A stretch of 64,000 nt of DNA, taken from an uncultured Deferribacteraceae bacterium (lineage in GTDB: Bacteria; Chrysiogenota; Deferribacteres; Deferribacterales; Mucispirillaceae). The stretch is from contig CAMRCY010000001.1 of NCBI GenBank assembly GCA_947041165.1, positions 38,892 to 102,891 of the forward strand, given 5' to 3'. The notes below the pieces were generated by a model that made no database searches, had not been told where the DNA came from, and saw only the letters and a list, made by a program, of their open reading frames with translations. The translations under genes and the position numbers were made by a program. Of the stretch, positions 15,094 to 51,268 are shown piece by piece. Numbering within the stretch: position 1 is the first letter of the stretch; each line of letters opens with the position of its first letter.

Positions 15094-15095
15094 AT

Positions 15096-15830: not shown

Positions 15831-15841
15831 AGGTAAAATAA

Positions 15842-20578: not shown

Positions 20579-20618
20579 GACTAAACTTTTACTTGACAAT
20601 TCGTATTAAAATAGTTTA
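20579..20618 (+). promoter_or_regulatory. Promoter-proximal element of the lipoprotein gene, shared with the receptor operon
   Basis: ACTAAACTTTTA, CTTGACAA, then TTAAAAT in fixed order. The same block occurs at 24751-24790 before the TonB-dependent receptor, with one extra A. TTGACA is a consensus -35 but the -10 is ambiguous (TTAATT with a 17-bp spacer). It lies about 80-115 bp before the lipoprotein ATG. Confidence 0.6.
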
Positions 20619-23600: not shown

Positions 23601-23866
23601 TTGCAAATGATAATACCATTATGACAACAGAAGCAGATAAGTATTCTGCGTTAGAGTCGATAGCAGAAGCTGTTGTATTAATTGATGTGTTTAAGGGTAC
23701 GGATATCGCAATTTCAGATATGGATAAAGACGGTAAACCAGATTTCTTTGCACCATGGGCAACAGAGGCACAGATAACAGCTTCAGGATTAACGCTTGAT
23801 GATGATATTGACGGCGACGGCGTTTTAGATAGTACCGATTTAAGACCGTTTTTTAAAGATAATTAA
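20696..23866 (+). CDS. Large lipoprotein with helical repeats and a C-terminal Asp-rich calcium-type motif
   Basis: 1056 residues. The signal peptide MKKLSTALVLMLSMFIISCG ends in a clear lipobox (IISC), so it is lipidated and exported. The body is mostly helical with TPR-like pairs (for example the segment around YRVLNKILEAKAVLVKAM and AAIGKMYLDLGDKESAETVF). The C-terminus has DMDKDGKPDFF and DDIDGDGVLDSTDLRPF, Asp-rich loops like thrombospondin type 3/EF-hand calcium sites. The function is not recognisable. The element it shares with the downstream receptor operon suggests co-regulation and possibly a surface capture or scaffold role. It is monocistronic, with a hairpin following. Confidence 0.85.
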   Translation: MKKLSTALVLMLSMFIISCGDDKKSDGDDQAVGLKLKGVVVDPYIRDSRVSLIKKGETVTARVCGSSGNLPCEGWSNEIGEWQISINIGMNLDDFYLNAIGGIDTKYGIAFDNIPLRRSKFALNNKIVISPITTVLHDYSSDTNDSAKAESTVKKALGLDDSIDLYADPMDNISLLKESYMIVKTAILLNEKGGSNSIDVIATNIGSNENIFSNDTYLEAILVGADNATSRAEIKASKVSLDATIGEINDVVAKIAKTEKLVYFKEAIVNGLQNYPTDPTADFATNVEQLYDRVEIVMESDLSVIQTNINQIVRLLKATQETDELDDYVNFNVTESEFQGKLATYVPDTLKARLVSVSNDSVISVDIPYFEVLGDDNAKRSSYYFNSTADNTYKARQLISKVNSDAINDTIYTQVIIANTKYGLHEKAANFANVYIIDSLKRAEAYRIIGSYSLNYDKAKAIEYLDESKRLLDAIYKVTPPPSGNTVATIAGAYQVLSTQYNRAGAIDKGTNVRNFLFDELLESLSAITSPKKQVVIGRLISSMANANREGAIYELITGKEYEAADVMMQEYKNLVDQYPAGTKEGSKYSIPILYSQFLMDAYYTIAQEKNSDGASDADVAKYKTLIETAFTDADKLKKIDAAAGGTQWEGYYSKMAESVAWAKGVQYVDTNIINVMSIQNNKTKAYGNYLKLLAKEQGFNAAKSYYETKAPIGDDFAMLDSYVDTFLSLDTDTENALAYIVTQLDNAVIYFNKQEVKPLKLGELITVNTNIVSQRYQHEGYLKVAERYRVLNKILEAKAVLVKAMAYVDTADNSFLKSKAYAAIGKMYLDLGDKESAETVFDKAAGVALPAGDKKIEADFYFGLAHDEFRMNNVDKTEKMSEYLQKATEATELMPKSTDNDKKARVGSLNYIAIEYANIPDITKADTTLQLAIKEAQTINAASQKKSALIGVMGKYVAIGLVDKAGTLANDNTIMTTEADKYSALESIAEAVVLIDVFKGTDIAISDMDKDGKPDFFAPWATEAQITASGLTLDDDIDGDGVLDSTDLRPFFKDN

Positions 23867-24072: not shown

Positions 24073-24286
24073 ATGGATAATAATTCAAAAAAGATTGTAG
24101 ATGCAGATGGAAAAGAGTTAGTAGTTGACAAGTTGCGTTGCACTAGTTGTGGAGCTTGTATTGAAGTTTGTGGCACAAATGCGATATATATGAAAGCACA
24201 CTAGACTAGATAGTGACGCCTGTACAGTGTGTGGTGATTGTGCAGAAGAGTGCCCATCAGATGCTCTTACTATAGAGAAAGAGTAG
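24073..24286 (+). pseudogene. 2[4Fe-4S] ferredoxin gene broken by a single-base frameshift
   Basis: A perfect AAGGAGG (24061-24067) precedes ATG 24073. The first frame encodes a ferredoxin N-terminus with CTSCGACIEVC and stops at TAG 24202. In the next frame, from about 24194, the protein continues as KHTRLDSDACTVCGDCAEECP to a TAG at 24284. Removing one A from the AAA at 24193-24195 would join both halves into a normal ~70-residue 2[4Fe-4S] ferredoxin. Either this is a recent inactivation, a frameshifting site, or a sequencing error. Just upstream, at 24006-24035, a second CTATATATAAA...AAGGAGG block resembles the region around this ribosome binding site but leads to no gene. Confidence 0.8.
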
Positions 24287-24522
24287 ATAGTAGTATTATA
24301 AAACTTGATTAGAAGTTCTATGAAACAAGGGTTATCTGTATCATAATTCATAGAAAGGTATACTCTCTTCAAGATTTAGAGGAGTAGTAATAGATTTAGT
24401 TTCACTAAGATTAATAGTATTGATAAAGTAGCTAATAATTTTACTATTAATCATAAATATAGACGTTAAAGTACGATTTTTTGTTGTATAACTTAGGATT
24501 TAAGATTTTCATAGAATAAAGT

Positions 24523-24583: not shown

Positions 24584-24624
24584 GGTAGGTAGGGAGATTT
24601 CATACTCTCTACCTACTTTTTTTT
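24584..24624 (+). terminator. Strong rho-independent terminator
   Basis: GTAGGTAGGGAGA pairs with TCTCTACCTAC (one bulged G), followed by eight T. It insulates the receptor operon from upstream transcription, including that of the ferredoxin remnant. Confidence 0.85.
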
Positions 24625-24750
24625 ACTTAATTTTATCTATAGTAATGCTGTAATAATACCGTGATAATACCATAGTAATGCCCATAATAATGACATAATT
24701 GTGTCAATAAATAACCAAAAAAACAGCAAAAAGCAGTAAAGATTAGCTTC

Positions 24751-24790
24751 AACTAAACTTTTAACTTGACAAAACCTGTTAAAATGCTTA
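24751..24790 (+). promoter_or_regulatory. Promoter-proximal element of the receptor operon
   Basis: Carries ACTAAACTTTTAACTTGACA, then TTAAAAT, matching 20579-20618. It is followed by AGGCTTAACTAAA (24790-24802), a 13-mer that recurs at 49984-49996. It sits between the strong terminator and the receptor start, where the operon promoter must be. Confidence 0.6.
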
Positions 24791-24912
24791 GGCTTAACTA
24801 AAGTATTTATACAAATATGAATATAAATATAGATTTAGAGTATTTTTCTTCTAAATCATTCAATAATTTGTATATTTTACGTTTTTATTATGGGTTATGG
24901 TGTAATTTATCT

Positions 24913-27537
24913 ATGAGTTTTATAAGAATTATATACAATACAGCTTTCTTTTTAACGATTATGATGTTAATCACGTCAATTTCTTTTAAAAGTGTTTACG
25001 CTCTTGATAATAAAACAGAAAATATCACAGCAATAGATAATAATAGCTCAAAACTCGATAATAATAGCTCAAAATTAGATGATGATGAGATGGATGCTGT
25101 CTTAGATGATGAATATCTTGAGGAGATAGAAGATTTTTTTGATATGGGAGATGTAAATGTGATTGAAAATCTAAATAAGCTTGAAAACACAGGTAAGACG
25201 ACTATTCCGAGAGATTTTATTGAAAATTTACCAACAGGTAATGGTAATATTACAGATGTTTTAAAGATTGTGCCGGGTGTTCAATTTAGCAATGATGTTA
25301 GGAGTTCATCATCGGCAGGCGAGATCGCACCTGATGAGATATCTATTTCGGGTGGCAGAACGTATGAGAACCTTTTTATGGTTGATGGAGTAAGTAATTC
25401 GAGTTCACTTGATCCAGCAGCAGATAATCCTTATCAAGCAGATGATGTATCAGGTGGATCGTATAAATTTTTTATAGACTCATCTATTATTAAAGACATT
25501 ATCGTTTATGACAGTAATATTCCAGCATCATACGGTGGATTTACAGGTGGAGTTGTTGATATTGTCACAAAGACACCAGGCGATAAATTTGAACTTGATT
25601 ACTCGTATAAGTTTACAGGTTCAGAGTTCACGCATTTTTTTATAACTGAGGATGAGAGGTATTTGAATGACTCAACTAACGACACATCTAATCAGTTAAA
25701 TTTTTCAAAAAGCTTTCATTCTCTTTCGTCATCTATTCCTATCACAGATGATTTAGGATTACTTTTAAGTTATAAATTAAATCGTTCTACAATTCCATTA
25801 AATTATTTTAATGGGTATAAGGATCAAAGCAGAATGGCTCAAACTGTATTTTTAAAAGGTGTTTATAATATTGATGGTTCGAGTTTTGCAGATCTCACAA
25901 CATCTTACTCTCCAAACAGTGGAGATTACTTTATAAAAAATACTCTCAACAGTGATTTTGAAATCAAAGGTGGTGGAGTTTTTTCATCTGTTAATTATCA
26001 TAATGAGATAGGTGATAATAAAATCAAAGTTCATGTTGATTATAATTATTCGGAAAATTCAAGAGAAGCACCACAATATTTTAAGTCATGGATAGCATCA
26101 GATAATAAACCGTGGGGCGAGACAATTAATAATGGTGATGATCCAACAAAGACTGCGATCAGTACTGAGGGTGGATGGGGCAGTATATATAAAACTGAGC
26201 AGAGCAGTAATGTATCGTTCGATCACACGATTAAAGATTTGAAATTAGCAGGTACGCATGAGTTCTCGTACGGTTTATCATATAAATATATTCAAGGCAG
26301 GCATAATCGAAAAGAGGATGCTATTTTATATAATGAAGTAGCAGAATCGGTTGATATAAATTGTGGTGGCGATAGTGGGACTTGTGTTGATGGCGAGCAA
26401 TATTTTTCAGGCAGAACGGTTACACCATCATCTAATGTTTTTGCATTAGTTAATGAGTACGCATTATACGCTCAAGATAGCTGGAAGTTTTATAGATTTA
26501 ATTTACGAGTAGGGCTTCGTGTAACGTACGATGATTTTATGGATAATGTAAATTTTGCACCAAGAACAGAGTTGAAGTACGATATTTTCAATGATAATTC
26601 AACTGTTCTTACAGCTGGTTATAATCGTTATTTTAGCGCTACACTTCTTGCAAATAAGTTAAAAGAAGGTGTATCACCAAGTTATCAAGAGCAACGCTGG
26701 ACGTATAGAAATCAGTTGCAAGACTTTCAACCAGTTTCTGATGGAACGAAAACATCTTATAATTTTAGCGAGCTTAGAACGCCTTATGTTGATGAGTTCG
26801 TGGGTGCTGTAGATCAATCAGTTTTAGGTGGATATCTATCTTTGAAATATATAGCACGACTTAGTGATGATGGGTTTGCAAGAGAACGTGGAGAGACAGA
26901 AGCAGATGGTATAGCGTACTATAGATTAAACAATAACGGTAGTGGTACATATCAATCAGTACAGATGAGTTACGATAGAAAGTGGACAAATCATCGTATA
27001 ACTTTCAATGTTGCATGGCAACATTCTATAACTTCAAATGATAGTTACGAGGATATTTTTAACTTAGAAGATCTTGATAACAAGGTTGTCTATAATGGCA
27101 ATACAATTCCATTAAGTGAGTTACCTAAAGATAATTATAATAAACCAGTGATAGTTAATCTTGCATATGTGGGCAAGTTTTTTAAATACTTTAAATTTTC
27201 TACATTTGTAACATTTCAGTCACCGTATAAAGAACTGGAGCTTGTAGATAGTGAGTATTTTATAGGGGAAGGAGCTATTGATCCGTCAACTGGTAAGCCC
27301 ACTAAATTATCAACAGCAGCTTATGAAACAAAAAGTCGTGGAGCAACATTTATAGTTGATTGTGCTATCACATTTGAAAAGCTTGTAACAGAGCTTGCAA
27401 AAGTTTCAGTATCGTTAGAGATTAACAATCTCTTTAATATAAAGAATGATACAGGATCAGGTTACGGTTCAACAACTACCTCTTCAACATATGAAATGGG
27501 TAGACAATTTTGGTTAAAGGTGGGTTATGTGTATTAA
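24913..27537 (+). CDS. TonB-dependent outer-membrane receptor
   Basis: Outer-membrane active importer, 874 residues from the start chosen here. I prefer ATG 24913 because it is immediately followed by a signal peptide (FFLTIMMLITSISFKSVYA). The open frame extends to ATG 24817, but that adds 32 residues of non-signal sequence without a ribosome binding site. A short acidic N-terminal extension (DDDEMDAVLDDEYLEEIEDF) precedes the plug domain (LPTGNGNITDVLKIVPGVQF, SISGGRTYENLFMVDGV, and YGGFTGGVVDIVTK). The 22-strand-type barrel ends in Tyr (FWLKVGYVY). No substrate signature is obvious. The partners downstream (TonB, M16 protease, peptide importer) argue for a protein or peptide ligand, by inference. 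Confidence 0.9.
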   Translation: MSFIRIIYNTAFFLTIMMLITSISFKSVYALDNKTENITAIDNNSSKLDNNSSKLDDDEMDAVLDDEYLEEIEDFFDMGDVNVIENLNKLENTGKTTIPRDFIENLPTGNGNITDVLKIVPGVQFSNDVRSSSSAGEIAPDEISISGGRTYENLFMVDGVSNSSSLDPAADNPYQADDVSGGSYKFFIDSSIIKDIIVYDSNIPASYGGFTGGVVDIVTKTPGDKFELDYSYKFTGSEFTHFFITEDERYLNDSTNDTSNQLNFSKSFHSLSSSIPITDDLGLLLSYKLNRSTIPLNYFNGYKDQSRMAQTVFLKGVYNIDGSSFADLTTSYSPNSGDYFIKNTLNSDFEIKGGGVFSSVNYHNEIGDNKIKVHVDYNYSENSREAPQYFKSWIASDNKPWGETINNGDDPTKTAISTEGGWGSIYKTEQSSNVSFDHTIKDLKLAGTHEFSYGLSYKYIQGRHNRKEDAILYNEVAESVDINCGGDSGTCVDGEQYFSGRTVTPSSNVFALVNEYALYAQDSWKFYRFNLRVGLRVTYDDFMDNVNFAPRTELKYDIFNDNSTVLTAGYNRYFSATLLANKLKEGVSPSYQEQRWTYRNQLQDFQPVSDGTKTSYNFSELRTPYVDEFVGAVDQSVLGGYLSLKYIARLSDDGFARERGETEADGIAYYRLNNNGSGTYQSVQMSYDRKWTNHRITFNVAWQHSITSNDSYEDIFNLEDLDNKVVYNGNTIPLSELPKDNYNKPVIVNLAYVGKFFKYFKFSTFVTFQSPYKELELVDSEYFIGEGAIDPSTGKPTKLSTAAYETKSRGATFIVDCAITFEKLVTELAKVSVSLEINNLFNIKNDTGSGYGSTTTSSTYEMGRQFWLKVGYVY

Positions 27538-28426
27538 TAGTAATAGGGTGATATCTGTTGAAAATCTTGAACACAGTTATGGTAGCAATAAGGTTTTACA
27601 CGGGATAAATCTCTCAGTTGATAAGGGTAAAGTTTTTGGATTATTAGGAAAGAATGGTGCAGGCAAAACAACGACAATAAATATCATGATGGGGTTTCTT
27701 AAACCTGATTTTGGTAGATGTTTAATTTTTGATGAGAACTCTTATTCATTATCTAATAGAGCGAAATCTAAGATCGCATTGCTTCATGAAGGACATCTAG
27801 CGTATGACTTTATGAACATTGATGAAACGGAACAATTTTATAAATCATTTTATAAAGCGTGGGATAAAGACATCTATGATTACCTAATAAAAAAACTAGG
27901 ATTGAAGAGATCGCATAAGATAAAAAATATGTCATGTGGTCAGCGTTCACAAGTTACATTGGCGGTGCTTATGGCACAAAATTCTGATTTGTTGATACTT
28001 GATGATTTCTCTATGGGATTAGATGCTGGATATAGAAGATTGTTTCTTGATAACTTAAATGACTATGTTCAAAAAAGAGAGAAAACAGTTCTTGTAACAA
28101 CACATATTGTTCAGGATATAGAGAGATTTGTTGATGAGGCAATTCTTATTGATAAAGGAAATGTTATTGTTTCTGGAAAAATTAATACACTAGGAGATGG
28201 GTTACATGGATACCGTATAACACTTGATACAAATATACAATTATTAAGTAGTTATAAAGAGATCAAGGACATATCTACAAACAATAAAAGTTACGAAGTT
28301 ATCACGAATATTAAACCAGAAGAGGCTGATAAGTTTTTTGATAAAGCATTAAGTAAGAAGATAGATTACGAGTATTTTGATTTAACATTAGAAGATACTT
28401 TTATCGCACTTACAGGAAAATATTAA
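27527..28426 (+). CDS. ABC transporter ATP-binding protein with variant motifs
   Basis: 299 residues. Walker A is LLGKNGAGKTTT. The signature loop reads MSCGQRSQ in place of LSGGQ. Walker B reads LLILDDFSMGLD, so the catalytic Glu position is Asp. The H-loop His is kept (VTTHIVQDIE). The C-terminal ~90 residues resemble the regulatory tail of BcrA/YtrB-type exporters. The start overlaps the receptor gene by 11 bp. With the next membrane protein it should form an inner-membrane ABC exporter or regulator complex; the odd catalytic motifs may mean slow hydrolysis. Confidence 0.88.
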   Translation: MCINSNRVISVENLEHSYGSNKVLHGINLSVDKGKVFGLLGKNGAGKTTTINIMMGFLKPDFGRCLIFDENSYSLSNRAKSKIALLHEGHLAYDFMNIDETEQFYKSFYKAWDKDIYDYLIKKLGLKRSHKIKNMSCGQRSQVTLAVLMAQNSDLLILDDFSMGLDAGYRRLFLDNLNDYVQKREKTVLVTTHIVQDIERFVDEAILIDKGNVIVSGKINTLGDGLHGYRITLDTNIQLLSSYKEIKDISTNNKSYEVITNIKPEEADKFFDKALSKKIDYEYFDLTLEDTFIALTGKY

Positions 28427-28435
28427 GAGGTATAT

Positions 28436-29101
28436 ATGATTAAAAGTATTTGGTTAAAAGAATATATTAAATTAAAAAAGATATTAGTAATACTTCTACT
28501 AATTCACATAGCTGTATCTGTCTATTATTTTATCACACTGCGTGGTGGTTTTGAAATGATAACACCAGTTCAGATATGGTCAGATATAATTGCTAAGAAC
28601 TCGATTTTTTTCTATAGATATGAGGCGGTGTTTTATGGGACAGCGATCACGTTAGGAGTGTTTCAATTTTTGCCAGAAGTTATAAAAAGATCATTTCGTA
28701 TATCGTGTCACCTACCGATGAATGAGTATATTATGGTTGCGAGTACGATCTCATTTAGTATCATATTTCTAACTTTATTATTTGTAATTGATACGGTTTT
28801 GATATGTATAGTATCTTCATTATTTTTTCCGTATGACATATATAGTTTAATTCCAAAAGTGATGTTGTATTGGTATTTAGAGGCTATATTAATCTATATG
28901 ATCGCCTCAATCCTCACTCTTGAACCGTTATGGAAAAATAAGATAAGGATAGCTATTCTAATAGTAGGTATAGTGACGTTAGTTGATGTGTCAGTTTATA
29001 AAACAGATATCTATTATGTATTGATAGTCGTTGGGATTGTACTAATTTCTATACCGATAATTTACTATCCAGCAATACGATTTAGAAAGGGAGTTATGTG
29101 A
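28436..29101 (+). CDS. ABC transporter permease-like membrane protein
   Basis: 221 residues with about six hydrophobic segments (for example ILVILLLIHIAVSVYYFI and IAILIVGIVTLVDVSVY). It has no soluble domain. It is placed directly after the ATPase (9-bp gap), and its size fits an ABC-2-like permease subunit. Sequence family not recognised; assignment rests on topology and position. Its stop overlaps the next gene. Confidence 0.65.
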   Translation: MIKSIWLKEYIKLKKILVILLLIHIAVSVYYFITLRGGFEMITPVQIWSDIIAKNSIFFYRYEAVFYGTAITLGVFQFLPEVIKRSFRISCHLPMNEYIMVASTISFSIIFLTLLFVIDTVLICIVSSLFFPYDIYSLIPKVMLYWYLEAILIYMIASILTLEPLWKNKIRIAILIVGIVTLVDVSVYKTDIYYVLIVVGIVLISIPIIYYPAIRFRKGVM

Positions 29102-30357
29102 TGAAATATATAGCAAGGGTTACGATGCTTATTATTGCGGTGTTATCATTTTCAAAATTTATACCTCAATATTATACAAAGATTTTTTCAGAACGAGTTA
29201 ATACGCCTCTAATTTTTTATAGTGAAGTTTTACAAGATTTTATTTTGCGTACAGTTGATAAGTCGTTTAATATTAGACATTTTGATAGTAACGGAGATAA
29301 TTATACAAAGAAAGAATACTCATCATTATTACCGATGCTTTTTAGCAGAGAGTTAAAAATATGGGATAAATATCCTACGGATATACATGGCAAGAAGATC
29401 CCCGTTGATGTTGCAATAAGAGAGAGTCAGTTTCTTTCAATATATCCAAAATCAATTGACAAGTCAGAAAGAATGATAAATCTCTATCCATTATTTGATG
29501 CAAGTGGAGAGTATACAACTATTCAAATGCCACCAGATCTTTTTAGAATAAATAATAAAATGGAATTTATTGATGCCACAACAAATAAGATTAATGATAA
29601 TAAAAGTACACTACATACAGAGCTATTAGTTGATGCTGGATTTAAGTTTCCTGCAAAAATTATCGCTGGTAATCCAACGACAAGAAAACAGTATGATTTT
29701 GGATATTTTATATTAGATTCAGCAAACAATTTGTATCATCTGTTTTCTATCAAGGATAAATCGTTCATAAGAAATACAGGTGTAAAAATAGATGAGAATA
29801 TTATTTATATTACTGTTGAGGAAAATAGAAATCTTCCTAACTATGGATTAATTGTAACAGATAATGGATCTGTATATAGCTTGTTAAAAGATAAATATAG
29901 ATTAGATAAAATATCACTTGGAGCATACGATCCTTATAATGATGATTTGAAGTATTATTTAAATCCATTAATTGTATCTATCAAAATTATTACTGATCAT
30001 AACGAGAATATGTATATATCAGATAGATCAGGCAACTCTTTAGCATCATATTTTTATGAATACGGTGATACTCTATCTCCTTTTTACAGAGCGGTTTATA
30101 CGACTGTTTTTCCATTTAGAATTTTAACAGATGGAAGAAGTTTTGCAAAGTATCAAGAGTTTAAGTTTTCAGATAATGTTTTTGAAGCGTATCTTTTTAC
30201 ATCATTATTAGCAGTTATATATCTTATGTATTTGGTGACAATTAGAGAGAGAGATAAGTTTACATTTGTAATAGATTCAATTTTTATATTTACAGGTGGT
30301 ATATATGCGTTACTAGCGATTTTGATTTTAGATGGTATCAGGAGATATAAAAGATGA
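29101..30357 (+). CDS. Membrane protein of the ABC module, unknown function
   Basis: 418 residues. I start at ATG 29101, seven bases after AAAGGGAG; a GTG three bases earlier is also possible. One N-terminal hydrophobic segment (about 5-20) is followed by a ~330-residue extracytoplasmic domain with beta-rich, propeller-like repeats (NLYHLFSIKDK and GLIVTDNGSVYSLL), then two C-terminal membrane segments (about 355-375 and 390-410). It resembles proteins that accompany ABC ATPase/permease pairs in Bacteroidota (possibly DUF4857), but that is from memory and unverified. Confidence 0.6.
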   Translation: MKYIARVTMLIIAVLSFSKFIPQYYTKIFSERVNTPLIFYSEVLQDFILRTVDKSFNIRHFDSNGDNYTKKEYSSLLPMLFSRELKIWDKYPTDIHGKKIPVDVAIRESQFLSIYPKSIDKSERMINLYPLFDASGEYTTIQMPPDLFRINNKMEFIDATTNKINDNKSTLHTELLVDAGFKFPAKIIAGNPTTRKQYDFGYFILDSANNLYHLFSIKDKSFIRNTGVKIDENIIYITVEENRNLPNYGLIVTDNGSVYSLLKDKYRLDKISLGAYDPYNDDLKYYLNPLIVSIKIITDHNENMYISDRSGNSLASYFYEYGDTLSPFYRAVYTTVFPFRILTDGRSFAKYQEFKFSDNVFEAYLFTSLLAVIYLMYLVTIRERDKFTFVIDSIFIFTGGIYALLAILILDGIRRYKR

Positions 30358-30788
30358 ATATAAAATTAGTTATTGATTATGGAGTGATAGGTTTTTTAGC
30401 GGTAATGAGTGTGATCGCTATAGCTGTTGCAATAGAGAGAGTAAGATTTTATAAAGAAGTTAATCCTAATGATTATTCAGCTATCCAGCTTTATGAAGTT
30501 GCGTTGACTAAACATTTACATATCATAGCAACGATCGGCAGTAACGCTCCATATGTAGGTTTATTAGGAACGGTTATGGGTATCATGTATACGTTTGTTT
30601 CTCTTGGTGAAAACTCAACAGGCGGAAATATTCCAGAGATAATGACAGGTTTAGCGTTAGCGTTAAAAGCAACAGCTGCTGGATTATTGGCTGCTATCCC
30701 AGCGATGGTAATGTATAATTTTCTGCATAGAAAAGTGACTGAACTTATGTTAATTAAGGAGGCTATGTGTGAGAGAGAAAAGCTTTGA
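30354..30788 (+). CDS. exbB: ExbB-type proton channel subunit
   Basis: 144 residues, a short ExbB of the kind seen in epsilonproteobacteria. Membrane segment 1 is at about 8-28. The core MotA/TolQ/ExbB motif follows in IATIGSNAPYVGLLGTVMGI and TGLALALKATAAGLLAAIPA, with the conserved Thr/Ala channel residues. It overlaps the previous gene by four bases and the exbD gene by 20. With ExbD it uses the proton gradient to power TonB, here most likely dedicated to the receptor at 24.9 kb. Confidence 0.93.
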   Translation: MNIKLVIDYGVIGFLAVMSVIAIAVAIERVRFYKEVNPNDYSAIQLYEVALTKHLHIIATIGSNAPYVGLLGTVMGIMYTFVSLGENSTGGNIPEIMTGLALALKATAAGLLAAIPAMVMYNFLHRKVTELMLIKEAMCEREKL

Positions 30789-31146
30789 TTCGATAAACGT
30801 TGTTCCTTTTATAGATATAATGTTAGTGCTTTTAACGATAGTATTAGCAACAGCAACATTTGTAAAAACAGGAGTTATTCCTATTGCTCTGCCAGTGTCA
30901 ACATATTCAGAAACAGCTGTAGAAACAGTTACGATCTCTATATCATCAGATGGAGTTTTTTATTATGAGGATAAAGGTATAGACCTTACTCAACTAAATT
31001 CTATTTTTGCAACGCTATCAAAAGACTCAAATATCACAGTGCGTGCAGATAAAGATTCATCTGTTCAATTTTTTGCAGAGTTAATGGGTTTACTACAAGA
31101 ACTAGGGTTTGAGAAGGTTAATTTACAGACGGAAAAGAGTAGTTAA
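30769..31146 (+). CDS. exbD: ExbD-type energy-coupling subunit
   Basis: 125 residues with one N-terminal membrane helix carrying the essential Asp in VVPFIDIMLVLLTIVLA, then a periplasmic domain. It starts at GTG within the exbB coding region (20-bp overlap). It is the partner of ExbB and TonB in the same operon. Confidence 0.92.
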   Translation: MREKSFDSINVVPFIDIMLVLLTIVLATATFVKTGVIPIALPVSTYSETAVETVTISISSDGVFYYEDKGIDLTQLNSIFATLSKDSNITVRADKDSSVQFFAELMGLLQELGFEKVNLQTEKSS

Positions 31147-31148
31147 TT

Positions 31149-32003
31149 ATGGTAAGGTCAATAATAGAATCTATTGCAATTCATATAATTGTGCTTGTAT
31201 TGATTATTATGGGACCTATCGTTAAAGGTGGCGACTCTTACGGTTACGGTACAGGATCATTATCGATATCTACATCAATTATAACTGGTAACGCTGGTGC
31301 ATCAGATGAAGCTGCATCTTTAGTAAGAGAAGATATATCAACAGGTATCGCTCAACAAGAAGTTATAAAAAATATGAAGAAGAAATCAAGTATTAAAACT
31401 ATGAATGAAGATCAAAGTGAAGATATAGCTGAGAATGAAATAGATCAAAAAGTAGAAGAGAAGATCGTACGAAATGATGAAAGTGGTATAGAGGTTGAGC
31501 GTGAGAAATTAAAATCTAATACAGCTGAAAGTATGGAAGATGATAACTCGCAAGATGAGTATAATAACGACTCTCAATCAGATTACTCTCAAGTAGCATC
31601 TATTCCAAAACAATCGTTAGACGGTGTTGTTGGTATGGAAGGGTTAGGAGCAGGAGGCGGTGTTGGAACAGGATCGGATGCTCAAGTTTCAGGTTCAGAA
31701 AAGGGAGTTATATCTCTTAAAGATGTAGATACAATACCTAGAGCGTTATCAAATATTAAGCCTAACTATCCAAAATATGCAAAAGATAACAGGATTGAAG
31801 GGCGTGTGCTTGTAAGGTTTATATTGAATGAAAAGGGTGATGTGGAATCTCCGTTAGTGGTAAAAGCAAGTCCAGTAAATATATTTGAAACATCTGCATT
31901 GAAAGCAGTTAGTCAGTGGAAATTTACCCCTGCTGTAAAAGATGGGGTAATAGTTAGAGTAGGAATGGTTGTGTCTGTAAAGTTTAAATTAGAAGAAAAT
32001 TAA
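31149..32003 (+). CDS. tonB: TonB-like energy transducer with an acidic rather than Pro-rich linker
   Basis: 284 residues. The N-terminal anchor (IIESIAIHIIVLVLIIMGP) includes the His typical of TonB. The periplasmic linker (about 60-190) is rich in Asp, Glu, Lys and Ser and lacks the Pro-Lys/Pro-Glu runs of classical TonB, which is unusual. The C-terminal domain is a clear TonB_C: KPNYPKYAKDNRIEGRVLV and KASPVNIFETSALKAVSQWKF. It starts two bases after the exbD stop. Confidence 0.92.
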   Translation: MVRSIIESIAIHIIVLVLIIMGPIVKGGDSYGYGTGSLSISTSIITGNAGASDEAASLVREDISTGIAQQEVIKNMKKKSSIKTMNEDQSEDIAENEIDQKVEEKIVRNDESGIEVEREKLKSNTAESMEDDNSQDEYNNDSQSDYSQVASIPKQSLDGVVGMEGLGAGGGVGTGSDAQVSGSEKGVISLKDVDTIPRALSNIKPNYPKYAKDNRIEGRVLVRFILNEKGDVESPLVVKASPVNIFETSALKAVSQWKFTPAVKDGVIVRVGMVVSVKFKLEEN

Positions 32004-32043
32004 ATTATTAAAAATATGTTAAATTAGGTTTAAGGAGTTGTTT

Positions 32044-34881
32044 GTGAATAAGAGTATTGTTAAAAAAGTTACTATTTTAGTTTTTCTGTTAGTCATGGGG
32101 TTAGTGAATATGGGATACGCAAAAAAAGATGAAAAGCTAATCAACTATATTAAAGATAGCGATCAATTACCGTTTAGTGATCAGATAAAAGTTGGTAAAT
32201 TGAAAAATGGATTAACTTATTATATTAAACATAATGATTTTCCAGTAAATAAAATTGAGATGCGTTTAAATATAAGAAGTGGTTCGTTAGATGAAAATGA
32301 TAGCGAACAAGGTGTTGCTCATTTTGTTGAACACATGGCGTTCAATGGTACGAAAAATTTCAAAGGTAATGATGTAATAAAGTTCTTAGAGAAAGTCGGA
32401 TTAAGTTTTGGTACACACAGTAACGCATCAACATCAACAGACTATACGAACTATCAGTTGAGCATCCCAGCTGATGATCCTAAATTAATAAAAGACTCGT
32501 TTAAAATTTTTAGAGATTGGGCAGATGCTATCTCATTTGATGAAAGCGAAATCGAAAAAGAGAAAGGTGTTGTGGTTGAAGAGTTTAATAGCCGTAATGA
32601 TTTTAGATATAGATTAGGTGTGAAAAACAGAGAGATAATTTTTGAAAATTCTTTATACGCAGTGAGAGATCCTATCGGAAAGATGGATGTGATTTTAAAT
32701 GCTGACAAAGCTCTGCTGAAAGGTTATTACGATAAGTGGTATAGAGCGTCAAATATGTCTATTATAGTTGTCGGAGATATAAATATTGAGCAGATTGAAA
32801 AGATGATTGAAGATACATTTTCATCTCTTAGTGCGGATAAACTACCTCAAAAAGCAGATAAAAATATCCCTGTACAGAAAGGGTTGAGCGTTCATATAAT
32901 CTCTGATCCTGAAGCTAAATCATCATCGGTATCGCTCACTTATTTAAAGAACGAGGGAAGAGTTAAAACATTTGCTGATTTAAAAAAACGTCTGTTAGAG
33001 CAAGCAAGTTTAAGTATGTTGAATAGACGAGTATCGTTAAAAATATTAGAGGATAAAAGTGATCTAATAGGGTTCTCTGCAGCGACAAGTAACTACTCAG
33101 ACAATTTATATGGTACACGATTTAATATTGTGACAACACCAAAAAATATTAAAACAGATATTGAAATTCTTTTAATTGAGATTGAAAACATTAAACGTAA
33201 CGGGTTTAATCAACAAGAGTTAGATGAGTTTATATCAAAACAACAATCAGCATTAACAAGATTTACTCAACCTGATTATAAAGATAGTTCAGAGAGAATT
33301 GCGTCGATGATATCATCATACGATATTAAGAAAGATTATCTAACTGAGTACCATCAAGACAAAATATTATTTGATAAAATATTGAATGAGAGCAAATTAA
33401 GTGATTACAATAAAGCGTTTAATAAACTTGTAGATAATGAAAATCAAGTTGTTTTAGTGGCTGTTCCTGAGCGTGATTTAGAGATGGTAGACATTGATAG
33501 TAAAACTTTTAAATCTATAAAACAGAAAGTATCTAAGATGAAAATAGAGAAATATAAAGGAAGCGAAGCTATCACAACTCTTATCAATAAAAAGATAGCA
33601 TCAGGTAAAATTAAATCACAGAAGAGATATGAAAATATCAATTCAGATTTAATTATTTTTGAAAATGGAGCACAGTTACTTATTAAAAAAACTGATGCTG
33701 ATAAAAACAAATTTATGATTATAGGTAATAAGTTAGGTGGAAAATCTGTTCTAAATGATAAAGAGATTATCTTATCATCTTTAATGCTTAATACGATTAG
33801 AAGCAGTGGGTTTAAGGATATTACATTAAGTCAATTAAGAGGATATTTAGCAGATAAAAGTGTATCGTTAGCACCATCAATTAAACTGAACACATTTTCA
33901 TTTGACGGAGCAGGAGATTCTAAAGATATAGAAACAGCGTTTCAATTACTCTATAACTATATGACCGTGCCTGTAATAGATGATAATGTTTTCGACCATA
34001 TTATAGATCAAACAAAGATATCATTAGGTAGTGATAAAAAGGATAAATATCAACAGTTTATTCGTGAAGCAGTAGCTAAAATGTATAACGATAATTATCG
34101 TAGAGAGTACCTGTTAGACACTGATTTAGTAGATTTAAAAAAGAGCGATTTATTAGAAATTTATAATAAAAATTTTAGAGATATAGGTAATTATAAATTT
34201 GTAGTAGTAGGAGATGTTAATAAGGAAGAGGTAGTTAAATATGCTGAAAAATACATAGCATCACTTCCAAGCAGTAGTAAGAAATCAAGCACTAAATTTC
34301 TGAATGTTGATCTTGTAGCAAAGAGGGGGAAATCTGTTGGATACGGAGATGTTTTAGATAAAGCAACAGTGATGATGATTTTTGATAAGGATATAGATTA
34401 TATTAAAAATGGAGAGTATATTTCTGCATTGGTAAGACGTATAATATCTAAAAAATTAAGAGAAAAAATAAGAGAAGATATGAGTGGTGTGTACTCATCA
34501 AATGTAATGATAAGATACACAGATTTTCCAGAGGACTCATTATTTGCACGGATATCGTTTACAACCTCATCATCAAAAAGAGATGATATCATCAAAGAAA
34601 CAACTCTCGTGTTTAATAATATTATTAAACATGGAGTAACTAAACAAGATTTAGAGATTGCAAAAAGTCAGCAGATATTACAGCTGGATCAAGCATCTCA
34701 GAATAATAAATTTTGGGCAACAAGTATAGCGTCAAATCTTATAGAAGAAGATACCGTGTTATCAGCAGATGAGATGATTGATATTATTGAAAAGATTACA
34801 ATTGATGATATAAATAAGTTTATCACAAAATCTATGTCAGATATGAGAAGTTACATTACCATCTATGACAAGGGGAAGTGA
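32044..34881 (+). CDS. Exported M16 zinc metalloprotease (PqqL/FusC-like)
   Basis: 945 residues. Start placed at GTG 32044 because AAGGAG (32032-32037) is six bases before it; a TTG at 32038 touches that site. A signal peptide (ILVFLLVMGLVNMGYA) directs export to the periplasm. The catalytic inverted zinc motif HFVEH is in VAHFVEHMAFNGTKNF, with the further acidic ligand region EKEKGVVVEEF downstream. Two M16 halves (about 40-490 and 530-945) match the two-lobed PqqL/FusC type in length. Within this operon it would degrade a protein or peptide imported by the receptor. The substrate is inferred, not seen. Confidence 0.9.
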   Translation: MNKSIVKKVTILVFLLVMGLVNMGYAKKDEKLINYIKDSDQLPFSDQIKVGKLKNGLTYYIKHNDFPVNKIEMRLNIRSGSLDENDSEQGVAHFVEHMAFNGTKNFKGNDVIKFLEKVGLSFGTHSNASTSTDYTNYQLSIPADDPKLIKDSFKIFRDWADAISFDESEIEKEKGVVVEEFNSRNDFRYRLGVKNREIIFENSLYAVRDPIGKMDVILNADKALLKGYYDKWYRASNMSIIVVGDINIEQIEKMIEDTFSSLSADKLPQKADKNIPVQKGLSVHIISDPEAKSSSVSLTYLKNEGRVKTFADLKKRLLEQASLSMLNRRVSLKILEDKSDLIGFSAATSNYSDNLYGTRFNIVTTPKNIKTDIEILLIEIENIKRNGFNQQELDEFISKQQSALTRFTQPDYKDSSERIASMISSYDIKKDYLTEYHQDKILFDKILNESKLSDYNKAFNKLVDNENQVVLVAVPERDLEMVDIDSKTFKSIKQKVSKMKIEKYKGSEAITTLINKKIASGKIKSQKRYENINSDLIIFENGAQLLIKKTDADKNKFMIIGNKLGGKSVLNDKEIILSSLMLNTIRSSGFKDITLSQLRGYLADKSVSLAPSIKLNTFSFDGAGDSKDIETAFQLLYNYMTVPVIDDNVFDHIIDQTKISLGSDKKDKYQQFIREAVAKMYNDNYRREYLLDTDLVDLKKSDLLEIYNKNFRDIGNYKFVVVGDVNKEEVVKYAEKYIASLPSSSKKSSTKFLNVDLVAKRGKSVGYGDVLDKATVMMIFDKDIDYIKNGEYISALVRRIISKKLREKIREDMSGVYSSNVMIRYTDFPEDSLFARISFTTSSSKRDDIIKETTLVFNNIIKHGVTKQDLEIAKSQQILQLDQASQNNKFWATSIASNLIEEDTVLSADEMIDIIEKITIDDINKFITKSMSDMRSYITIYDKGK

Positions 34882-34882
34882 T

Positions 34883-36706
34883 ATGAGTAGATTGATTATG
34901 TTTCTATTATTTTCATATTTTGTAATTTTTGCAGAGAGTGTGTATTCGTCAGATATCACAAGAACTCACGGCATATCACTTACAGGTTCATTAAAGTATA
35001 ACGAAGATTTTCAGCACTTTGACTATACAGATAAAAACGCAAAAAAAGGTGGTACTTTACGCAGAGCAATAATAGGCACATACGATACTTTTAACACATT
35101 TGCATTAAAAGGAATTCCTTTTAGATCATCAGGATCTATTTACGATACGCTTTTAAAATCATCACTTGATGAGTCGGTTTCATATTATGGATTATTGGCA
35201 GAAAGTTTAGAGTACCCTGATGATTATTCGTGGGTACAATTTAATCTCAACAAAAAGGCTAGATGGAATGATTCTGTACCTTTAACATCAGATGATGTTC
35301 TTTTTACATTTAACACGTTAGTAAAGAACTCTCCATTTCACAGGAACTACTATAAGGCTGTAGTGGATGTTAAAATTATAGATAAGCATACGATAAAATT
35401 TATATTTAATAAAAGTGGATTAAATAAGGAGCTACCATTAATTTTAGGACAGATGGTAGTTCTACCAAAACATTATTGGAAGAGTAAAGATATTTCAAAA
35501 TCAACATTAGAGCCACCACTTGGTAGCGGTCCATATAAGATCAAATCATTTGTTGCAGGCAAGAATGTTGTGCTTGTTGCAGCTGATGATTACTGGGGAA
35601 AAGATCTTCCTGTGAATATAGGACAAAATAATTTTGAAACAATAGCGTTTGAGTATTTTAGAGATCAGACTGTCGCATTTGAAGCGTTCAAAGCAGGACA
35701 TTTTGATTTCATTTCAGAGGGTTCAGGTAAGCGTTGGTATCATGGATATAAGGGTAGATATTTTGATATGGGGCTAATCAAGAAAGAAGAGATCTCACAT
35801 AAAAATCCGACAGGAATGATGGGTATAATTTTGAACACATCTGTAAAACCTTTTGATAATATATTAGTAAGAGAAGCTTTGACGTACGCTTACGATTATG
35901 AGTGGATAAATAAAAATATATATTATGGTAATGATATAAGGCACACAAGTTACTTCTCTAACTCGGAATTAGCGGTTGAAAATATTCCATCTAAAGAGGT
36001 TGTAGAGATTATTAAAAGAGTTAAGCCAGATGTGTCAGATAAAGTTTTATATAAGAAGTTTGAACTTCCAAAAACTGATGCAACAGGTAATAACAGATCG
36101 AACTTAATGAAGTCAGTTACTTTATTTGAAGAGGGAGGCTACACGATCAAAAACGGAAAAATGGTAGATAGTTCTGATAAGCCATTACAGTTAGAGATCG
36201 TTTTAATATCGAAAGCTTTAGAGAAGGATATTCTGTCATTTAAAAAGTCATTAGAAAGAATTGGTATAGAGTTGCATATTCGTTATATTGACTCAACTCA
36301 ATATGTGGAGAAAGTTCGTAATAAAGATTACATGATGATCTACACTCGGATAAAACAGTCGGACTCTCCAGGTAATGAACAGCGTAATATGTGGAGTAGC
36401 GATGTAGCATCAGAGAAAGGTAGTAGAAATTATGCAAAGATAAAAGATACAGCGATTGATCAATTAATTGATTTAATAGTTGATGAGAGCAGTAGAGCTA
36501 AGTTAGAGAACTATGTGAAAGCGTTAGATAGATTGCTTCTTACAGGTTATTACACAATCCCAGCAGGTTATTCAGATAGATATCGTATTGCATATTTTGA
36601 TAAATTTAGTAAACCATCAAATCCTCCAGCATACGGCTTAGGGTTTAATACTTGGTGGATAGATAGTGATAAAGAGAAAGAGATTGATGGGATTATCAGT
36701 AGATGA
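34883..36706 (+). CDS. yejA: YejA-type periplasmic oligopeptide-binding protein
   Basis: 607 residues from ATG 34883 (AGGGGAAG just upstream; the frame extends six codons further back into the M16 gene end). The signal peptide is [22 protein letters not shown]. It is a class C/SBP family 5 protein: [21 protein letters not shown] with [20 protein letters not shown] is typical of YejA. Length matches E. coli YejA (about 604). YejABEF imports oligopeptides, including microcin C in E. coli. Here it follows the protease by one base. Confidence 0.9.
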
Positions 36707-37809
36707 TTAAATATATATCTAAACGATTGCTATTAATTATCCCGACATTAATAGGTATAGTAACAATCAATTTTTTTCTAGTTCAGATGGCACCAGGTGG
36801 TCCAATTGACACTATGATAGCTAAGATGAGCGGGGAGGCTGTAACTGCTGAAGAGCGAGCTATGCATGATGATTCAGAGGGTGCAACTGGTGTGATGATT
36901 GGCGATGATAATAAAGCAGATCAATACAAATCATCTAACTATCTGTCAGAAGATTTACGTAAAGATTTAGAGGAGTTATATGGTTTTGATAAGCCAATAA
37001 TGGAGCGTTACTTTCTTATGTTGAAACAGTTTTTACTGTTTGATTTTGGGGACAGTTTTTTCCGTGACAGCAGTGTGATAGAGTTGATTAAAGAGAAGTT
37101 GCCAGTATCTATATCATTAGGCGTATGGACGACTTTTTTAGTATATTTAATAAGCATTCCTTTAGGTATAAAAAAAGCTGTGAAACATGGTAGCAATTTT
37201 GATGTATGGAGTTCCTTTTTTATTGTTTTAGGTAGTGCTATTCCGATATTTCTTTTTGCGATTATTTTGATTATTTTATTTGCTGGTGGTAATTATTTTT
37301 CATGGTTTCCTCTACGAGGATTAGTATCTGATGGTTTTGCAGATATGAATTTATTTGAGAAAGTTAAGGATTATTTATGGCATATTTTTCTCCCTATTTT
37401 TGCGATGGTGATAGGAGGATTTGCGTCGCTATCTATGCTCACAAAAAACTCTTTTTTAGATGAGATAAATAAGCAGTATGTAACAACAGCTAGATCGAAA
37501 GGTATTACAGAGAGAAGAGTTTTGTACGGGCATATATTTCGTAACTCTATGTTAATAGTTATATCAGGTTTTCCAGCGTTATTTATATCAATGTTTTTTA
37601 CAGGATCGTTACTGATAGAGGTTATATTCTCTCTTGATGGATTAGGTCTAATGGGGTTTGAGGCTACGCTTAACCGTGATTATCCTATCATGTTTTCGAC
37701 CTTATATATATTTACATTAATGGGATTAGTCGTAGGTATAATCACCGATATTATGTATGTTTTAATAGATCCAAGAATTTCATTTGATTCTGTTCGTAGA
37801 GGTAGATAG
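36703..37809 (+). CDS. yejB: Oligopeptide ABC transporter permease YejB
   Basis: 368 residues, matching the usual YejB length. The N-terminus is [20 protein letters not shown] with the [12 protein letters not shown] motif, then an inserted periplasmic-facing segment typical of YejB. The DppB-like permease core follows, with the EAA-loop in [20 protein letters not shown]. It overlaps yejA by four bases and is followed directly by yejE. About six membrane helices. Confidence 0.93.
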
Positions 37810-38838
37810 ATGAAATTATCACCACTTACTAAAAGAAGAATAAGTCGATTTAGAAAGAATAAGCGTGCGTTTTATTCATTAATAATTTTCTCGTTATTAT
37901 TTATTTTAAGTTTGTTTGCAGAGATAATTGTCAATGATAAACCGATCGTATTATCTTATCAGGACAAATTATATTTTCCGATTTTCTTTGTATATACCGA
38001 GAAAGAGTTCGGCGGTTTTTTTGATACAGAGGCAGATTATAAAGATCCATTTATGTTAGATATAATAGATCAGCACGGTTGGGCTATATGGACACCTGTC
38101 CGTTTTAGTTACAACACAGTTAGCTATAATATATTAGAACCACCACCAACCAAGCCGACATTAATAAACCCGTTAGGGCTAGACGATCAAGGGCGAGATG
38201 TTTTTGCACGTCTACTTTATGGATTTAGGTTATCAGTAATTTTTGGATTTATGTTGACAACAATAACGTCAATTATCGGGATATTTGTTGGAGCTATTCA
38301 AGGATATTACGGAGGTAAGATAGATCTTTACAGTCAACGATTTATGGAAATTTTGTCAGGTATTCCTATGTTATATTTGTTGATTATTGCGAGCAGTTTA
38401 ATCCGTCCTGGTTTTTGGTGGCTACTTTTATTAATGAGTATTTTTGGTTGGATGTCGTTAGTAGGAGTTGTTCGTGCAGAATTTTTTAGAGGCAGAGAGT
38501 TAGAGTATGTTAAAGCAGCACGAGCATTAGGTGTGAAAGATTTTACAATAATGTTTCGCCATATCTTACCAAATGCACTTGTATCTGCTATGACATTTTT
38601 TCCGTTTATTTTAGCAGGATCGGTAACGGTATTAACGTCGCTAGATTTTTTAGGATTTGGTATGCCACCTGGATCGCCGTCACTTGGAGAAATTCTGGCT
38701 GCAGGAAAATCGAATATTCACGCCCCATGGGTAGGTATATCTGCGTTTGTTTTAGTGTCCTCAATGTTAACACTTCTTGTATTTATAGGCGAGGGATTTA
38801 GAGATTCATTTGATCCAAAACATTTAGAGAAGAGATAA
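37810..38838 (+). CDS. yejE: Oligopeptide ABC transporter permease YejE
   Basis: 342 residues, typical YejE length. The N-terminal hydrophobic segment FYSLIIFSLLFILSLFAEI is followed by a periplasmic loop with FPIFFVYTEKEFGG (a YejE hallmark). Then GLDDQGRDVFARLLYGFRLS opens the permease core, and the EAA loop reads AARALGVKDFTIMFRHILPN. The start follows the yejB stop without a gap. It forms a heterodimeric channel with YejB. Confidence 0.94.
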   Translation: MKLSPLTKRRISRFRKNKRAFYSLIIFSLLFILSLFAEIIVNDKPIVLSYQDKLYFPIFFVYTEKEFGGFFDTEADYKDPFMLDIIDQHGWAIWTPVRFSYNTVSYNILEPPPTKPTLINPLGLDDQGRDVFARLLYGFRLSVIFGFMLTTITSIIGIFVGAIQGYYGGKIDLYSQRFMEILSGIPMLYLLIIASSLIRPGFWWLLLLMSIFGWMSLVGVVRAEFFRGRELEYVKAARALGVKDFTIMFRHILPNALVSAMTFFPFILAGSVTVLTSLDFLGFGMPPGSPSLGEILAAGKSNIHAPWVGISAFVLVSSMLTLLVFIGEGFRDSFDPKHLEKR

Positions 38839-38841
38839 ATT

Positions 38842-40425
38842 ATGAAAAAAATTCTTGAAGTAGAAAATCTTAAAGTATCATTTAACACTGAAGTAGGAGA
38901 GGTTATCGCAGTTGATAATTTCTCTTTTGATATAGGTGAGGGCGAAACTTTAGCGATGGTTGGAGAATCAGGATCAGGCAAATCAGTTGCAGCTCTAGCT
39001 ATCACTGCTCTAAATAAATATTACGGTGCTATTTATAACTCTGGTGTCATAAAGTTTTGTGATAAAACCATCTCTTCGTATAGTGAAGATCAGATGCGAG
39101 ATATAAGAGGTAGAGATATAGCATATATTTTTCAAGAGCCTATGGTATCGCTTAATCCTCTTCACACGATCGGCAAGCAGATTATGGAGAGGTTTATATT
39201 TATAGATAAATTTAGTAAGCATGATGCAACAACAAGAGCTATAGAACTTCTTTCTTTAGTAGGTATAGTAGACGGCGAAAGAAGGTTGAATGATTTTCCT
39301 GATACGTTTTCAGGTGGTGAAAAACAGAGAATAATTATTGCAATAGCAATAGCTTTAAGCCCAAAATTACTTATAGCTGATGAGCCAACAACTGCGTTAG
39401 ATGCGACTATACAATTGCAGATTTTAAATCTAATGAATGAATTAAAAGATAAATTAAAATTATCTATATTATTGATAACTCACGACTTAGCAGTTGTCAA
39501 AAAATATAGCGATAGGGTTGTAGTTGTGAAAGATGGTAGGGTGGTTGAGAAAGGAGTTACAAAAGATATATTTACTAATCCAGTATCAGAGTATACGAAA
39601 TCTCTTATTAATATAAAAAACAAATCTGCCTTAGATAGAGGGTGGTGTGATGATATATTATTAGATGTCAAATCGTTATCAGTGATCTATAGTAAGCGAC
39701 GGTTTTTATCACGTCCTATCATCAATGTTGCAGTTGATAGTATATCATTTAAGGTTGATAAAGGTTCAACGCTAGGTGTAGTTGGCGAATCAGGATCAGG
39801 TAAAACATCATTGTTAAAGGCTGTATTAAGTCTTATAGATTTTACAGGTACGGTTCTTTTTAAGGGTAAAGATTTATCGAGATTAGGCTCAGAGGAGTTG
39901 CGTAAGTTGCGTAAATATATACAGGTAGTTTTCCAAGATCCGTTTGCAAGCCTTAACCCAAGAATGACGATTGAGCGTATTATATCAGAAGGTTTGCTTG
40001 CAAGTAATATTAAGGATAAATTATTTATCAGAAAGAGAGTTGAAGAGGTTGTTATTGAGGTCGGATTAAGTATAGATATTTTAAATAGATATCCACACGA
40101 ATTTTCAGGAGGAGAACGTCAACGTATAGCTATCGCCCGTGCGATAATATTAAATCCAGAATTAATTATATTAGATGAGCCGACGTCATCATTAGATAGA
40201 GTTATACAGTATCAGATAATTGAATTATTAAAGAGTTTACAAGTTAGATATAATATATCGTATATTTTCATCACACATAATTTAGAAGTTATTCAGTCTA
40301 TTGCAAATCATATTATAGTGATGAAAGATGGAAAAATTATTGAAGAGGGCATGTGTGATAAATTATTTAGCACTCCTCAGAATAATTATACTAAAGAGTT
40401 AATAGATGCTAGTTTACTAGATTAA
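38842..40425 (+). CDS. yejF: Oligopeptide ABC transporter double ATPase YejF
   Basis: 527 residues with two complete ATPase domains in one chain, as in E. coli YejF (about 529). Domain 1 (about 1-260) has Walker A GESGSGKSV, signature FSGGEKQRI and Walker B LLIADEPTTALD. Domain 2 (about 275-525) has GESGSGKTS, FSGGERQRI and LIILDEPTSSLD. Both catalytic Glu residues are present. It is the last gene of the collinear 24.9-40.4 kb cluster. Confidence 0.95.
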   Translation: MKKILEVENLKVSFNTEVGEVIAVDNFSFDIGEGETLAMVGESGSGKSVAALAITALNKYYGAIYNSGVIKFCDKTISSYSEDQMRDIRGRDIAYIFQEPMVSLNPLHTIGKQIMERFIFIDKFSKHDATTRAIELLSLVGIVDGERRLNDFPDTFSGGEKQRIIIAIAIALSPKLLIADEPTTALDATIQLQILNLMNELKDKLKLSILLITHDLAVVKKYSDRVVVVKDGRVVEKGVTKDIFTNPVSEYTKSLINIKNKSALDRGWCDDILLDVKSLSVIYSKRRFLSRPIINVAVDSISFKVDKGSTLGVVGESGSGKTSLLKAVLSLIDFTGTVLFKGKDLSRLGSEELRKLRKYIQVVFQDPFASLNPRMTIERIISEGLLASNIKDKLFIRKRVEEVVIEVGLSIDILNRYPHEFSGGERQRIAIARAIILNPELIILDEPTSSLDRVIQYQIIELLKSLQVRYNISYIFITHNLEVIQSIANHIIVMKDGKIIEEGMCDKLFSTPQNNYTKELIDASLLD

Positions 40426-51262: not shown

Positions 51263-51268
51263 CAACCT

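Follow-up and report, generated by a model that had tools for sequence, protein, structure and literature searches.

Twelve collinear genes at positions 24913-40425 of a 64,000-nucleotide DNA stretch from an uncultured Deferribacteraceae bacterium (the whole stretch is called the window below) were analyzed together with a lipoprotein gene upstream of them. On balance, the FusA-family TonB-dependent receptor, the TonB-ExbB-ExbD unit, the M16 protease and the Yej-type peptide importer encoded there would act as one line by which a protein, probably iron-bearing, is imported and digested and its iron and peptides are salvaged. The identity and family of each part, the conservation of the parts as a group and the accompanying lipoprotein were established by profile, PDB and genome comparisons, that is, at the level of sequence, and the cluster is real, conserved and probably iron-regulated; iron supply is its likely purpose, over general peptide feeding. 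The original prediction, an earlier note on this DNA, had proposed a system to capture, import, digest and absorb a protein or large peptide. Joint conservation and family identities bear out that reading in part; its purpose has been shifted toward iron supply and the lipoprotein has been added. The features are as follows.

20569-20586, no strand assigned: predicted DtxR-type box (GTTTAGGCGTGACTAAAC) before the lipoprotein gene; 23.4 bits, top site in 64 kb
20696-23866, +: 1056-aa lipoprotein, predicted surface partner of the receptor (neighbour conservation, structure model, TPR matches)
24584-24617, +: terminator-like hairpin, 13 pairs and a T run, between the lipoprotein and receptor genes
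24741-24758, no strand assigned: weaker DtxR-type box upstream of the receptor promoter; 11.8 bits, third-best in the window
24786-24803, no strand assigned: predicted DtxR-type box overlapping the -10 position of the receptor promoter; 18.9 bits, second-best
24913-27537, +: FusA-family TonB-dependent receptor (PDB 4zgv, 6ofr; Plug domain)
27527-28426, +: ATP-binding cassette (ABC) ATPase of the DUF4857 module (Pfam; signature MSCGQ, Walker B ending DD)
28436-29101, +: 221-aa membrane protein, probable ABC permease (5 transmembrane-like stretches; position in relatives)
29098-30357, +: DUF4857 protein (PF16149; structure model)
30354-30788, +: ExbB, exbB2 type (TIGR02805, 137.7 bits; cut-off 135.35)
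30769-31146, +: ExbD (PF02472; TIGR02804 at 91.6 bits, below the cut-off of 123.45)
31149-32003, +: TonB (PF03544)
32038-34881, +: exported single-chain M16 protease, FusC/PqqL type (PDB 6ofs, 6b05; HFVEH at residues 95-99)
34865-36706, +: YejA-type periplasmic binding protein (PDB 7atr, 7z8e)
36703-37809, +: YejB permease (NF011712, 528.9 bits; cut-off 445)
37810-38838, +: YejE permease (NF011596, 452.1 bits; cut-off 439)
38842-40425, +: YejF-type double ATPase (NF011713; two Walker A motifs)

Composition of the cluster

The overlaps and near-zero gaps claimed for the twelve genes were found in the open reading frame (ORF) listing, in which intergenic gaps range from -20 to +34 nucleotides, and the product identities proposed earlier were upheld by Pfam and NCBIfam profiles and by PDB sequence comparison. 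The start of the receptor was set at the ATG at 24913, where the starts of its relatives align, the ORF being open from 24817. Its best PDB match was 4zgv, "Ferredoxin receptor" (FusA), at E 4.8e-90 over residues 82-905, nearly the full length, followed by 6ofr, which we take to be YddB (1.4e-44), with no further PDB sequence up to E 10; a Plug domain was found by Pfam. By sequence, the receptor is a member of the FusA (ferredoxin receptor) family.

The M16 protease matched 9ldy (an unnamed M16 peptidase, 3.2e-91), then PqqL (6ofs, 1.1e-80) and 6b05 (3.9e-45), which is named FusC (PMC12731061), and also 6b03 and 6brs (with 6b05, FusC entries, listed as "putative zinc protease"). Its HFVEH conforms to HxxEH and is invariant in 10 aligned sequences, the N-terminus is signal-peptide-like, and the single-chain enzyme is encoded in the receptor's cluster, likewise in relatives. 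The comparison with Fus drawn in the original prediction was thus right at family level, and the window encodes both a FusA homologue and an M16 protease, the family pair of protease-associated import systems (PMC6793856), as judged by profile and PDB matches. A FusC-like M16 paralogue, 54% identical, lies elsewhere in the source genome (G000, 2.14 Mb, 98.6% complete; contig C29, L076:8958-11801), with none of this set's receptor or transporter genes near it; each of the four genomes in the window's genus has a second M16 of this size elsewhere.

YejA matched 7z8e (7.6e-132), YejA 7atr (2.3e-121) and 5icq (1.8e-101), the last presumably being MbnE, the methanobactin-binding protein. YejB and YejE pass their NCBIfam subfamily cut-offs, and the gene order is A-B-E-F.

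In genera g8 and g15 (G032, G038, G040; L025, L026, L031), ExbB-ExbD-TonB is replaced at the identical position by a unit of DUF3450, a MotA/ExbB-domain protein, ExbB, ExbD, TonB and a TPR protein (domains scanned in the G040 copy), which we take to be a TtpC-type TonB2 module. Since different power units occupy one slot, the cluster seems to require a dedicated TonB unit.

The membrane protein that had been described as unknown is indeed encoded; its family, however, is known, as it passes the PF16149 (DUF4857) gathering cut-off at 249.1 against 25 bits. Genes 2-4, formerly treated as mere parts of one set, are recast as a separate DUF4857-ABC module. The ATPase beside DUF4857 has the degenerate signature MSCGQ in all 10 copies compared, and its Walker B ends in DD, not DE, wherever the compared stretch extends to it; the 221-aa membrane protein gave no match in Pfam. 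In a structure model (pLDDT, the predicted local distance difference test score, of 89), the DUF4857 protein has an N-terminal transmembrane helix, a beta-propeller-like domain, predicted from the model to be periplasmic, and two to three C-terminal transmembrane helices. Handling of iron or a cofactor is our guess for this module. In G048, a DUF4857-ABC pair lies a few genes from feoB (L030:3936-10922).

The lipoprotein

Described at first as self-contained, the set is incomplete without the lipoprotein gene at 20696-23866, which had been overlooked. In relatives of other genera this gene directly precedes the receptor gene; in the window the two are about 1 kb apart with the strong terminator-like hairpin at 24584-24617 between them, so they are probably separate transcription units here. 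The protein has a lipobox (by eye), an N-terminal beta domain, a TPR-like superhelix and an Asp-rich C-terminal tail, the last being its densest run of invariant residues. The model showing the superhelix is of modest confidence (pLDDT 68.7); in a comparison with the SusD fold, made on this low-confidence model, TPR and other helical-repeat proteins were among the matches listed. Pfam gave sub-threshold TPR matches alone and NCBIfam no match to the lipoprotein, and a large protein search, covering close relatives only, listed six proteins, three of them full-length including the window's own. Large proteins with a lipobox (by eye) are also encoded just ahead of two FusA-like receptors from Pectobacterium's class (L135:5785-9096, L138:5781-8639); their last 55-98 residues are 41-55% identical to those of Deferribacterota lipoproteins including the window's, and the Asp-rich tail is shared. 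The lipoprotein is predicted to be a surface partner of the receptor.

Between the lipoprotein and receptor genes (24082-24295) lies a gene for a small 2[4Fe-4S] ferredoxin-like protein that appears to be split over two frames, as in L042; the ferredoxin motif was not found in the corresponding stretch of L041. In G048, a protein resembling formylglycine-generating enzyme (FGE-sulfatase) is encoded directly upstream of the lipoprotein gene (L068:14583-15662).

Conservation across Deferribacterota

A total of 146 genomes, 50 of them Deferribacterota (G000-G049), were searched with five queries (receptor, DUF4857, lipoprotein, YejA and M16), using bit-score lines of our own choice (receptor >100, YejA >1000, M16 >900). 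The receptor was found in 14 of the 50 Deferribacterota genomes and in one more genome outside the phylum (G090). DUF4857 was found in all 14 receptor-bearing genomes and none of the other 36, and so was the lipoprotein, in pieces at contig ends in G024 and G035, and full-length in none of the 36, among which G016 and G023 show a weak N-terminal match alone (57 bits). YejA and M16 above their lines were each found in 13 of the 14 and in 0 of the 36, so that receptor, M16 and YejA of this type occur together in 13 of 50 genomes. A neighbourhood in which the Yej genes were not kept with the receptor and protease had been named as the finding that would count against the original prediction; the opposite was found, as all 13 genomes with YejA have the receptor, and in 12 of them YejA adjoins the M16 gene on one contig. 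Fisher tests of co-occurrence gave 1e-12 to 4e-11, values that are not true probabilities because the genomes are related and the bit lines were self-chosen.

The gene order was retained in ten genomes of five genera (G000, G002, G003, G004, G006, G007, G009, G032, G038 and G040), at about 30-72% identity in g2 and g3 and with the other energizer in place in g8 and g15. Since the set recurs in order across genera, the grouping is more than chance. As to the individual loci, the G007 stretch stops within YejF, the 221-aa gene of G004 was not called as an ORF, YejA of G006 has one stop, the G003 lipoprotein lies on a separate contig, and in G001, G024 and G035 the set is spread over several contigs. 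A second YejA (788 bits) lies elsewhere in G004.

Iron-type regulation

One FUR and one DtxR-family match were found in the source genome. The pattern TTTAGN6CTAAA occurs there at 16 sites against 9 for the reversed control; 15 such sites were examined as loci, of which 13 lie inside ORFs and two upstream of genes, namely the lipoprotein gene and dtxR. Boxes of this kind were also seen in the dtxR-feoB interval of the window's genus and of three Mucispirillum genomes (feoB being identified by eye from its N-terminal residues), and the window's genus has one ahead of dtxR as well. With a matrix built from 11 dtxR/feoB-type sites, all outside the window, the best three sites of the 64 kb were 20569 (23.4 bits), 24786 (18.9) and 24741 (11.8). 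Among 500 random windows none reached 23.4, and four had a site of at least 18.9, none having two; an earlier null of 200 random windows had a maximum of 22.8 bits, and the box at 24741 lies within the random range. With a matrix from three Mucispirillum dtxR-feoB sites, 20569 again ranked first and 24786 third, behind 57139, and the lipoprotein promoter ranked first in all three Mucispirillum cluster loci, compared with two of three for the larger matrix.

The receptor promoter was read by eye from TTGACA at 24766-24771, which is not among the sites of a sigma-70 scan. That scan gave 103 sites in the window against 105.3 in shuffles, and since these counts are equal, the promoter readings, all made by eye, are weak evidence. 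Fur control in the window was set aside, as no site exceeds 15/19 to the consensus, and the two at 15/19 (42008, 46719) lie away from the cluster promoters. Iron-responsive control of both units is likely, to judge from the boxes, in the window's genus (g1) and Mucispirillum (g3).

Proposed pathway and alternatives

In the proposed pathway, the surface lipoprotein would help to capture a protein, which the receptor would take in, powered by the TonB unit of the cluster. M16 would cut the protein in the periplasm, freeing a metal cofactor, and YejABEF would bring in the peptides; the released iron or cofactor may be dealt with by the DUF4857-ABC module, the least certain step. A DtxR-family repressor, serving feoB too, would keep both units off until iron is scarce.

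Several observations weigh against this account. YejF falls short of its equivalog cut-off (575.7 against 834 bits), so the importer is termed "Yej-type" and no equivalence with that of E. coli is claimed. In G048, one contig carries the receptor, the lipoprotein and the ABC ATPase, DUF4857 lies on two further contigs, and neither this M16 nor this YejA was found. YejA-like proteins occur without this receptor in G047 and G049 (642 and 629 bits), for which reason the 1000-bit YejA line is to be taken as our own choice. The distribution is patchy in g3 (Mucispirillum): of its 10 genomes, 3 have the cluster, and incomplete genomes are among the remaining seven. As to regulation, the box was first seen in the window and then guided the choice of training sites, and DtxR-family regulators can sense manganese too. 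The upstream regions of the cluster have no convincing DtxR-type box in g2, g15 and g18 and a weak one in g8, so that control differs by genus, and the DtxR-family loci of g2, g8, g15 and g18 are without such a box. Fur-like palindromes precede the cluster in g2 and g15 (L025 and L037, 13/14; L034, 12/14), with no null behind these counts. No substrate is reported for YddB/PqqL in the part of PMC6793856 covered.

The full peptide importer behind the protease gene would suit a cluster that supplies carbon, nitrogen and amino acids from proteins or large peptides, iron being incidental. This is unlikely, given a dtxR/feoB-type box at both promoters, a receptor nearest to the ferredoxin receptor FusA and a DUF4857-ABC locus that responds to iron in Bacteroides thetaiotaomicron, according to the covered part of its report. 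Import of a peptide metallophore or small modified peptide, comparable with methanobactin or the microcins, which M16 would trim and Yej carry in, is improbable: YejA is related to the presumed MbnE, and the Yej families are named for microcin C transport, but the receptor and M16 sort with the FusA/FusC group by sequence, and a 1056-aa partner lipoprotein suggests a large ligand.

Defence, in which Yej and M16 would clear host or bacterial antimicrobial peptides from the periplasm, is very improbable, although a protective role of yejABEF against such peptides in Salmonella is cited in PMC5030693 (in part), since a powered receptor importing these peptides would do harm and iron-type boxes precede both units. 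That unrelated operons lie side by side by chance is scarcely credible; the probable separation of the lipoprotein and receptor units by a terminator-like hairpin would fit it, but it is already contradicted by the neighbourhood data, the genes being conserved together in 13-14 of 50 genomes, with their order kept in five genera.

Comparison with known systems

In the Fus system of Pectobacterium (FusABCD; PMC5095587, in part), a FusA-family receptor, a dedicated TonB-like protein, a FusC-type M16 protease and an inner-membrane transporter are likewise clustered. FusD, however, is an SbmA/BacA-like fused ABC protein, the place of which is taken here by YejABEF, and the present cluster adds ExbB, ExbD, the DUF4857-ABC module and the lipoprotein and belongs to Deferribacterota, not Proteobacteria. 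The FusD-position proteins of Pectobacterium (L054) and Yersinia (L055) have overlapping ABC_membrane_2 and SbmA/BacA matches, the former scoring higher, and an ATPase domain; in a Vibrio locus (L056) an SbmA protein adjoins the M16 gene. PF05992 and PF06472, both found in L054, L055 and L056, were not listed for the 12 cluster proteins, and without a FusD the cluster is not a Fus operon sensu stricto.

YddA-YddB-PqqL of E. coli shares the receptor and periplasmic M16 and is iron-regulated (PMC6793856; for YddA, PMC5095587; both in part), through Fur, whereas DtxR-type boxes were found here; the main text of PMC6793856 has no Yej, and DUF4857 and the lipoprotein do not appear in the sections covered. 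BT3625-BT3633 of B. thetaiotaomicron unites DUF4857, an ABC ATPase and a TonB-dependent receptor and rises 36.7- to 128-fold on iron depletion (PMC10434189, in part); it differs in its PepSY membrane proteins and DUF4876, with no M16 or Yej among the products listed in that part. YejABEF of E. coli and Salmonella is matched at family level by YejA, YejB and YejE and in its A-B-E-F order, but here it stands behind a protease and a receptor, with a YejF below the equivalog cut-off.

Among 274 genomes sampled in Pectobacterium's class, five have a receptor match at E 1e-40 or better, and the four besides Pectobacterium have no FusC-type M16 and no complete Yej nearby, so the receptor is not always accompanied by the protease. 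Three of these four adjoin a di-haem peroxidase gene. In L069, L136, L137 and L138, a FusA-like receptor has a di-haem cytochrome c peroxidase gene as its neighbour in place of M16; such peroxidases at loci without FusC have been noted already (PMC6793856, in part). Near the Desulfuromonadales receptors (L051-L053), neither Yej nor a FusC-type M16 was found; L051 and L052 have a distant M16-like ORF (24-27% over about a fifth of its length).

Receptor and M16 systems are described as widespread in Proteobacteria (PMC6793856, in part), the main text of that paper having no Yej, ExbB or Deferribacter; the published description of the M. schaedleri genome has no TonB in its main text. A different, five-gene Deferribacter cluster has TonB, a receptor and an iron ABC ATPase (PMC13186404, in part), and in a colitis study YejB/YejE transcripts rose in mice, in passages that name no Mucispirillum source (PMC5030693, in part). 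In open-licence main texts (figures and supplements not covered) nothing joining yejABEF and M16 was found, and the earlier statement that no cluster with exactly this set had been described was matched by no contrary description there. FusA-M16 systems being already known in Proteobacteria, the new elements are the phylum, the use of YejABEF where Fus has the SbmA/BacA-like FusD, the lipoprotein, the DUF4857-ABC module and the DtxR-type boxes. A paper on a pyrroloquinoline quinone (PQQ) receptor that cites Fus concerns, we presume, YncD, another protein. PQQ was rejected as a substrate here, the main text of that paper having no FusA, PqqL, M16 or ferredoxin.

Few bacterial systems have been shown to import whole proteins. 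Both SbmA and Yej import peptides, and this sharing of a role by two importer families suggests, by analogy, that peptides cross the inner membrane in both systems. A wider proposal, offered tentatively and with more doubt than trust, is that FusA-type receptors stand at the head of complete machines for consuming proteins, that FusD imports peptides rather than an iron-sulphur cluster, that YejABEF fills the same slot, that DUF4857-ABC, as a new kind of device, handles the metal, and that large Asp-tailed lipoproteins, a family not recognized before, capture prey for FusA-family receptors across phyla. In the sections covered of the Fus papers (PMC5095587, PMC6793856, PMC13253070), FusD is put forward as the importer of the released iron-sulphur cluster, and what becomes of the digested protein and its iron at the inner membrane is still hypothetical. 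The present cluster offers a natural comparison: its slot is filled from another importer family, the power unit has been exchanged, and the predicted iron switch can be tested. The phylum includes Mucispirillum schaedleri of the mouse gut, which can be cultured; if the proposed pathway is true, consumption of iron proteins would be a means by which Deferribacterota in the gut compete for iron.

Other features of the window

In an Rfam scan, tRNA alone was matched. The genes at 12321-19599 and 50204-52504 resemble, from their N-termini by eye, a type I restriction-modification set and two DNA methyltransferases.

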